Shown here piece by piece: positions 25,418-27,610 of a stretch of DNA of 35,866 nt; within the stretch, counting starts at the first letter, position 1; each line of letters opens with the position of its first letter. The stretch is from Bacteroidota bacterium (GTDB lineage: Bacteria > Bacteroidota > Bacteroidia > UKL13-3): assembly GCA_947449515.1 (NCBI GenBank), contig CANFSD010000003.1, forward strand, positions 1 to 35,866, read 5' to 3'. A model generated the notes under the pieces. It ran no database searches. It was given only the letters and a program-made list of their open reading frames with translations, and was not told the DNA's origin. Position numbers and translations under genes: made by a program.

Positions 25418-26092
25418 ATGAGAAAAATCTATACCCTACTGCTTTCTTTAGTGGCATTTATGCCCACAAAAGCGCAAGTGAGCACTTATTCCACCTCAAG
25501 TGGCGAACTTATTTTTTCCTTTGCAGATTATAAAATTAAAGGGGAACAAATAAACACACCAGTGCGATTTACATGCTTCTTTCACCTTGGCAGCTTCCAA
25601 CATTTTGATTTTAATGACAAGGTGGGCATTTACACAGGTGCTGCAATTAGAAATGTTGGATTTATTTCAACAAGAGGAGATTCTATGATTAAAAGGAGAA
25701 ACTATTATGTTGGTATTCCTTTGGCAATAAAAATTGGAAACCTAGACGAAGATACTTACTTGTATGCAGGCGTAGAAGGAGAAATAGCTTTGAATTACAA
25801 AGAAAAAATATTTGTAAATGAAGACAAAGTTCACAAGTTTAATGTTTGGTTCAGTAACCGAACCAATGCTTTTATGCCGAGTGTATTTATGGGCGTTAAC
25901 CTAAAAGGAGGCTTTAACATGAAATTTAAATATTATTTGTCTGATTTTTACAATAAAAATTTCGTGGCAAGTGGCGAAAAGATCTATGCAAACACCACCA
26001 GCCAAATGTTCTATTTTTCTGTAGCTATGAATGTTCGTAACACTTCTTATAGCAGATCAAGGTCAAATAAAACCTATAACCAAGGCTTGTAG
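25418..26092 (+). CDS. Predicted outer-membrane beta-barrel protein
   Basis: Signal peptide MRKIYTLLLSLVAFMPTKAQ; DKVGIYTGAAIRNVGF, VGIPLAIKIGNL pattern. Confidence 0.65.
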   Translation: MRKIYTLLLSLVAFMPTKAQVSTYSTSSGELIFSFADYKIKGEQINTPVRFTCFFHLGSFQHFDFNDKVGIYTGAAIRNVGFISTRGDSMIKRRNYYVGIPLAIKIGNLDEDTYLYAGVEGEIALNYKEKIFVNEDKVHKFNVWFSNRTNAFMPSVFMGVNLKGGFNMKFKYYLSDFYNKNFVASGEKIYANTTSQMFYFSVAMNVRNTSYSRSRSNKTYNQGL

Positions 26093-26112
26093 CGATTTTG
26101 GTTCAAATACTT

Positions 26113-26150
26113 AAAATAAAAAAAGCACCAAAAGGTGCTTTTTTTATTTT
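26113..26150. terminator. Rho-independent terminator
   Basis: AAAATAAAAAAAGCACC AAAA GGTGCTTTTTTTATTTT, perfect 17-bp arms. Confidence 0.9.
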
Positions 26151-26153
26151 GGC

Positions 26154-26183
26154 TTTGTTTTTTATTAAATTCCAATACTTTTG
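26154..26183 (+). promoter_or_regulatory. Bacteroidota-type promoter for the metK leader
   Basis: TTTG (26154-26157) - N18 - TACTTTTG (26176-26183), matches TTTG/TAnnTTTG. Confidence 0.7.
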
Positions 26184-26189
26184 CAGTGC

Positions 26190-26320
26190 ATTAAGAATTC
26201 TTTCACTTTATTGGGAAAGGATGCCAACCGGGAAGAACGCCACGGTGGTAAAGCAATGCGGACTTTCTTGTCAAATATAGTTCACCAATATCTGCGAAGA
26301 GTCCTCAAAGTTTGCTTAGT
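26190..26320 (+). ncRNA. Candidate structured RNA / cis-regulatory leader of metK
   Basis: P1 26197-26204/26215-26222; P2 26223-26230/26243-26249; P3 26251-26256/26312-26317 and 26260-26267/26296-26304; P1 loop TATTGG complementary to P3 loop CCAATA. Confidence 0.55.
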
Positions 26321-26356
26321 GTTAACTTGAAATATTTTTAAAAAAGAACATAAAAC

Positions 26357-27610
26357 ATGGCTTATTTATTCACGTCAGAGTCTGTAAGTGAAGGACACCC
26401 AGACAAAGTTGCCGATCAAATATCGGATGCATTAATTGATAATTTTTTGGCTTTTGATCCTGAATCAAAAGTTGCTTGCGAAACCTTGGTTACCACCGGA
26501 CAAGTTGTTTTGGCTGGAGAGGTAAAATCTAAATCTTATTTAGATGTTCAAGAAATTGCACGTGGCGTTATTCGCAAAATTGGTTATACCAAAAGCGAAT
26601 ATATGTTTGAAGCAAATTCTTGTGGTATCCTTTCTGCAATTCATGAACAATCTGCAGATATCAACCAAGGTGTTGATCGTAAGAAAAAACAAGATCAAGG
26701 TGCTGGAGACCAGGGAATGATGTTTGGTTATGCAACCAACGAAACTGCTGATTACATGCCTTTGGCTCTTGACTTAGCGCACAAAATTCTTATCGAATTG
26801 GCAGCACTTCGTCGCGAAAACAAAGCCATCAAATATTTGCGTCCAGATGCAAAAAGCCAAGTGACCTTAGAATATGATGATAACAACAATCCAGTGCGTA
26901 TTGATGCAATTGTTTTGTCTACTCAACATGATGATTTTGCAGCTGAGGCTAAAATGTTGGCTAAAATCAAAGAAGATATTATCAAGATTTTAATTCCTCG
27001 TGTTAAAGCAAAATACAAGAAGTTTGCACACCTGTTCAATGATAAAATTACTTACCACATTAACCCAACAGGTAAATTCGTAATTGGTGGTCCGCATGGC
27101 GATACTGGCCTAACTGGCCGTAAAATTATTGTAGATACTTATGGCGGTAAAGGTGCACATGGTGGTGGAGCTTTCTCTGGTAAAGATCCTTCAAAAGTTG
27201 ACCGTTCTGCAGCTTATGCTACACGTCATATTGCTAAAAACTTAGTAGCTGCTGGTGTTTGTACCGAAGTATTGGTGCAAGTATCTTATGCTATTGGTGT
27301 AAAAGATCCTATGGGTATTTTCATTGATACTTATGGTTCTTCTAAAGTAAAAATGACTGATGGAGAAATTGCCAAACAAGTTTCAAAATTGTTTGATATG
27401 ACTCCTTATGGTATTGAAACCCGTTTGAAATTGCGTAACCCAATCTACAGCGAAACTGCTGCTTATGGACATATGGGTCGTAAGAACGAAATAGTAACCA
27501 AAGAGTTTAAAGGACCAGATGGTAAAATGGCTAAATTTAAAGTTGAGCTATTTACTTGGGAAAAATTAGACATGGTAGATAAAGTTAAAAAAGCGTTTAA
27601 AATCAAATAA
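26357..27610 (+). CDS. metK: S-adenosylmethionine synthetase
   Basis: [79 protein letters not shown]. Confidence 0.99.

Follow-up and report, generated by a model that had tools for sequence, protein, structure and literature searches.

A SAM-I/IV riboswitch in the metK leader of a Bacteroidota bacterium and its predicted competing-strand switch

What kind of RNA lies between the promoter and the start codon of metK in this bacterium? The window analysed here, a stretch of 35,866 nucleotides, carries on its plus strand a metK gene (26357–27610) for an S-adenosylmethionine (SAM) synthetase of 417 amino acids, with matches to the Pfam N, M and C domains at E-values down to 4e-60. A first-pass annotation had described the metK leader as three hairpins with a putative loop-loop pseudoknot, and had proposed either an effector-sensing riboswitch (for SAM, SAH or methionine) or an independent small RNA, possibly of a family that it did not recognise by eye. 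Upon inspection of the sequence, each of the motifs that it named was found at its position. The intrinsic terminator of the upstream gene, which had been taken to isolate metK, was confirmed as a stem at 26111–26152 of the plus strand (0.3 expected in shuffles) and sets metK apart from that gene. The Bacteroidota-type promoter follows at 26154–26183 (plus strand), with TTTG (26154–26157) and TACTTTTG (26176–26183) separated by a spacer of 18 nt. Such boxes directly adjoin the aptamer described below in all 23 metK-linked copies from the same order, with a spacer of 18 nt (20 in L018), in agreement with the earlier claim that metK has a promoter of its own. As the promoter adjoins the aptamer in every copy, the transcript should begin at the aptamer edge, probably near 26185–26190. 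At the other end of the leader, the translation initiation region of metK (26323–26356, plus strand) is A-rich and lacks a Shine-Dalgarno sequence. It presents A at -3 and at -12 to -14, where A is favoured in Flavobacterium translation initiation regions (PMC6847099).

The cmscan search against Rfam 15 that the first-pass annotation had asked for returned a single match in the whole window, namely the SAM-I/IV riboswitch aptamer (RF01725) at 26183–26288 of the plus strand. The score was 53.1 bits, with a gathering score of 41.1, the match covers model positions 1–99 of 99, and the E-value was 4e-8 when the region was scanned and 4e-6 when the whole window was scanned. Other Rfam families at 26080–26220 (SpF01, STnc130, sraL and others) stayed below their cut-offs and were mostly driven by the terminator hairpin. 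Because the RF01725 match is full-length and above the gathering score, and because metK lies downstream, the identity of the leader is not open: it is a member of the known SAM-I/IV class. The structured leader had thus rightly been considered a candidate SAM riboswitch, and the family that had gone unrecognised by eye is a known one. By family and by gene, the ligand is most probably SAM.

The fold of this aptamer was examined in an alignment of 21 metK leaders of the same order; all coordinates that follow are on the plus strand. The closing helix P1 is formed by GCATT (26188–26192), followed by the J1/2 segment AAGA, and AATGC (26255–26259), and 99% of the alignment cells for the 5' strand are paired; the 3' strand was likewise placed by alignment pair counts. 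P2 (26197–26222; ATTCTTTC at 26197–26204 with GAAAGGAT at 26215–26222) is uninterrupted, with a loop that is enlarged in the window, and four of its seven pairs change on both sides. P3 (26223–26249; GCCAACCG at 26223–26230 with CGGTGGT at 26243–26249) has the loop L3, AAGAAC, and is 97% paired, with six of eight pairs never varying. Outside P1 lies the P4 hairpin (26261–26272; GAC at 26261–26263 with GTC at 26270–26272), which is 90.5% paired. The pseudoknot PK-2 joins GAAC of L3 (26235–26238) to GTTC (26280–26283, placed by pair counts) with 95% of cells paired, and one of its pairs occurs as GC, GU and AU among the relatives. Altogether, P1–P4 and PK-2 are paired in 96.1% of cells, and the covariation score of the aptamer is 0.235, whereas shuffles gave 0.120 and slid partners no more than 0.071. 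Single-sequence folding of the leader is unremarkable on its own (z of -1.55). The first two hairpins of the first-pass annotation thus correspond to aptamer P2 and P3, while P1, P4 and PK-2 had been missed.

The leader also presents the features by which SAM-I/IV RNAs are distinguished from their relatives, given that in this class P2 is uninterrupted, PK-1 is absent and PK-2 is present (PMC2864571, PMC6890682). Its P2 has 7–8 bp and shows covariation, and PK-2 joins L3 to the tail that follows the outside hairpin on its 3' side. The core positions, GAA of J1/2, CCAACCG and ACGGTGG, show no or almost no variation across the 21 leaders and fit the family consensus. With SAM-I/IV, the SAM-I-IV-variant of Weinberg 2010 (PMC2864571), the leader hence shares the full model match, the core motifs, the uninterrupted P2, a P4 hairpin outside P1, a PK-2 from L3 to the 3' tail and the downstream metK. 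It departs from the class in a long competing stem located downstream of PK-2 and ahead of the start codon, in the enlarged P2 loop (found in the window and two sister leaders) and in a tail without a Shine-Dalgarno sequence. SAM-I (RF00162) and SAM-IV belong to the same clan and have the same binding core. SAM-I, however, has a P2 split by a kink-turn, a PK-1 and a P4 between P3 and P1, none of which occurs in this leader, where just 5 nt (26250–26254) separate P3 from P1 and P2 is uninterrupted. SAM-IV has P2a/P2b and PK-1 (PMC6890682), whereas here P2 is uninterrupted and pairing of the P2 loop is not conserved. SAM-II long loop (RF01726), which in other Bacteroidota is the SAM riboswitch most commonly found immediately before metK, has an unrelated fold, an H-type pseudoknot; it gave no match in the window by cmscan and none in the same genome under strict filters.

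The third hairpin of the first-pass annotation is a different matter. It pairs AAGCAA with TTGCTT and GGACTTTC (26260–26267) with GAAGAGTCC (26296–26304), and thereby occupies the PK-2 tail as well as the strands of P4 and the 3' strand of P1. As a result, it cannot form together with the aptamer fold, and the three hairpins therefore do not form a single structure. Its 3' arm, GAAGAGTCCTCAAAGTTT (26296–26313), can pair with the P1 3' and P4 5' strands (26251–26266), and a second competing segment, CTTAGTGT (26315–26322), can pair with the P1 5' strand and J1/2 (GCATTAAG, 26188–26195). Both take part in the predicted minimum-energy fold of the leader, which contains the third hairpin and an outer helix of the P1 5' strand with 26315–26327. 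This free fold is calculated at -40.7 kcal/mol and the aptamer-only fold at -34.3 kcal/mol, the latter without PK-2 or SAM, which together could bridge the gap. The third hairpin thus looks like the ligand-free alternative shape of the switch rather than a part of the sensor.

To see how general this competition is, every aptamer position was scanned against the sequence between the aptamer and the start codon, with dinucleotide shuffles as reference. In the 23 metK leaders of the order, the pairing signal falls on aptamer positions 61–83 (the P1 3' strand and P4), where windows that start at positions 61–70 have a mean z between -1.9 and -2.5. A weaker signal is found at positions 4–23 (mean z of about -1.1), and most other positions are near zero. 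In a tighter test of the competitor of the P1 3' strand, 19 of the 23 leaders reached p<=0.05 against shuffles (p of 0.008–0.02 for the window itself), and two, L028 and L029, have no such competitor. The pairing is kept where the 3' arm has diverged (-21.2 kcal/mol in L018) and where it is different (-18.3 kcal/mol, p of 0.001, in L142). Pair counts on an alignment made by sequence only also speak for the competing pairing, though less strongly: the 3'-strand helix has 90% of its cells paired and the 5'-strand helix 72.6%, four pairs across both are double-changed, and the covariation score exceeds the shuffles only slightly, with 46 of 500 attaining it. The competing stem is thus conserved among the relatives. 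It should be noted that, between closely related leaders of the order, pairing with a foreign aptamer is almost as strong as pairing with the own one; these leaders are too similar for a comparison of own and foreign pairing to be informative.

Taken as a mechanism, these elements would work as follows. Transcription would start at the aptamer edge. Without SAM, 26296–26313 would capture the P1 3' strand and the P4 5' strand, and 26315–26322 could pair with the P1 5' strand and J1/2. With SAM, P1, P4 and PK-2 would form and the competing segments would be set free; metK expression would then drop, most likely as the freed segments fold onto the start-codon region, which lacks a Shine-Dalgarno sequence. 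We consider it highly probable that metK is feedback-controlled by this SAM-I/IV riboswitch through competing-strand switching, most likely with a translational output. Such an output is plausible, as local structure affects translation initiation in the phylum, which proceeds without Shine-Dalgarno sequences (PMC6847099). Within the order, occlusion of the start codon by the freed segment was not above shuffles (unpaired fraction of 0.69 falling to 0.59, mean z of -0.25), and translational output is thus, for these leaders, what we infer. The same result speaks for a transcriptional output, in which SAM, rather than blocking translation, would expose either a weak terminator or a region where Rho is loaded; CAAAGTT/AACTTG, with AAATATTTTT after it, can be taken for a poor hairpin and its U-rich tail. 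Yet the metK leader contains no terminator-like site and in most relatives no U-run follows the competing stem, and we regard this alternative as unlikely.

For the translational reading, SAM-I/IV leaders elsewhere in Bacteroidia are instructive. In 24 such leaders, the competitor targets the P1 5' strand and J1/2, with a mean z of -3.4 (88% below -2) and values near zero outside P1–J1/2. Aptamers pair with their own segment at -11.4 kcal/mol versus -6.2 kcal/mol with the segments of other leaders, a gap that is difficult to account for unless the two co-evolved. The freed segment folds over the start codon, lowering the unpaired fraction (-15 to +3) from 0.58 to 0.33; the decrease is found in 20 of 21 leaders (mean z of -1.56), a set whose effective number is slightly lower, as it includes three closely related pairs. 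In the Emticicia agri record, for example, the metK leader (L059) has a 5'-strand competitor that reaches -12.8 kcal/mol (p of 0.001). These predictions suggest that Bacteroidia SAM-I/IV leaders act as a three-strand translational switch. Tentatively, and at somewhat less than even chances, we propose a shared platform in which a downstream strand that competes for either or both of the P1 strands is freed by SAM and covers the Shine-Dalgarno-less start; in the genus of the window, the competition would have moved for the most part to P4 and the 3' strand of P1. No description of this platform was found in the literature searched, from which the SAM-I/IV crystal-structure and SAM-IV discovery papers stood apart, and it is possibly undescribed so far.

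The loop-loop pairing of the earlier proposal fares less well than the hairpins. TATTGG (26209–26214) and CCAATA (26285–26290) do form six perfect base pairs in the window, and the two further leaders whose P2 loop is enlarged, L008 and L009, could still form UUG/CAA with a G-U pair; the contact might therefore be a lineage-specific pseudoknot added to the SAM-I/IV fold. Among the 21 sequences, however, no pair changed on both sides, 18 have no letters at five of the six column pairs, and a 6-bp match arises by chance in 5–7% of shuffles. In addition, the P2-loop pseudoknot PK-1 is absent from SAM-I/IV RNAs (PMC6890682). Considering the relatives and the shuffling, we rejected the kissing interaction and take the match to be fortuitous, leaving it a small probability of being real; the pseudoknot of this leader is that between GAAC of L3 and GTTC. 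The covariation check in relatives thus supported the aptamer helices but not TATTGG/CCAATA.

As the leader belongs to a known class, neither a new effector nor an independent small RNA is needed. An effector such as SAH or methionine on a SAM-I/IV-like scaffold might be entertained since related Bacteroidia elements precede uncharacterised genes, but the near-invariant core matches the family consensus and the gene is metK, making this very improbable. An independent small RNA that lies upstream of metK by chance, as its own promoter and the upstream terminator could hint, is more improbable still and was dismissed, as there is no terminator between the element and metK, the family is a known cis-regulatory one and relatives keep the element upstream of metK.

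Within the order, SAM-I/IV elements were found in 25 of 66 genomes by filtered scan, and in one more (G007) by direct inspection; metK is downstream in 23 of the 30 elements examined. Across Bacteroidia, 34 of 389 genomes carry the class. Among the best 80 metK relatives in other Bacteroidota, SAM-II lies at metK in 52 and SAM-I/IV in one. One genome of the same order (G055; L143, 1378–1438) has SAM-II at metK instead of SAM-I/IV, and the riboswitch class at metK therefore differs within the order. The near-absence of SAM-II from the order is weak evidence, since that search used strict filters and a similar filter missed the SAM-I/IV element of G007.

Other genes also follow SAM-I/IV elements in Bacteroidia. 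Eight elements (L002, L003, L004, L007, L027, L030, L130 and L132) precede similar-looking small proteins of 119–141 aa with a motif like HxxLxTxxDL, and none of the five of these searched reached the Pfam cut-off. Three (L113, L115 and L125) precede MoxR-like AAA ATPases, which are not methionine genes (Pfam on L113), and L116 precedes a Na+/H+ antiporter family protein (Pfam). Two or three matches lie within about 0.25–1.5 kb in L137 (G328, contig C2), L138 (G167, contig C47) and L139 (G101, contig C87), with the copies of L137 sitting among uncharacterised ORFs.

In a sister of the same genus, G017 (L141, contig C127, around 1425–1503), the promoter and GCATTCCATTAAGAAT are kept and AAACTAAATATG follows directly; the aptamer is missing from its P2 on, and so is most of the other leader sequence. 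This is a natural loss of the riboswitch at metK; this genome has another metK match as well, a partial one (L146). With its promoter kept and its aptamer lost, the sister offers a ready natural control. What had been a candidate new riboswitch is thus a known class in its expected place, and the helices that had been drawn for it sort into two states. The competing-strand pattern, in turn, provides a testable model for how a riboswitch may act where translation is initiated without a Shine-Dalgarno sequence.
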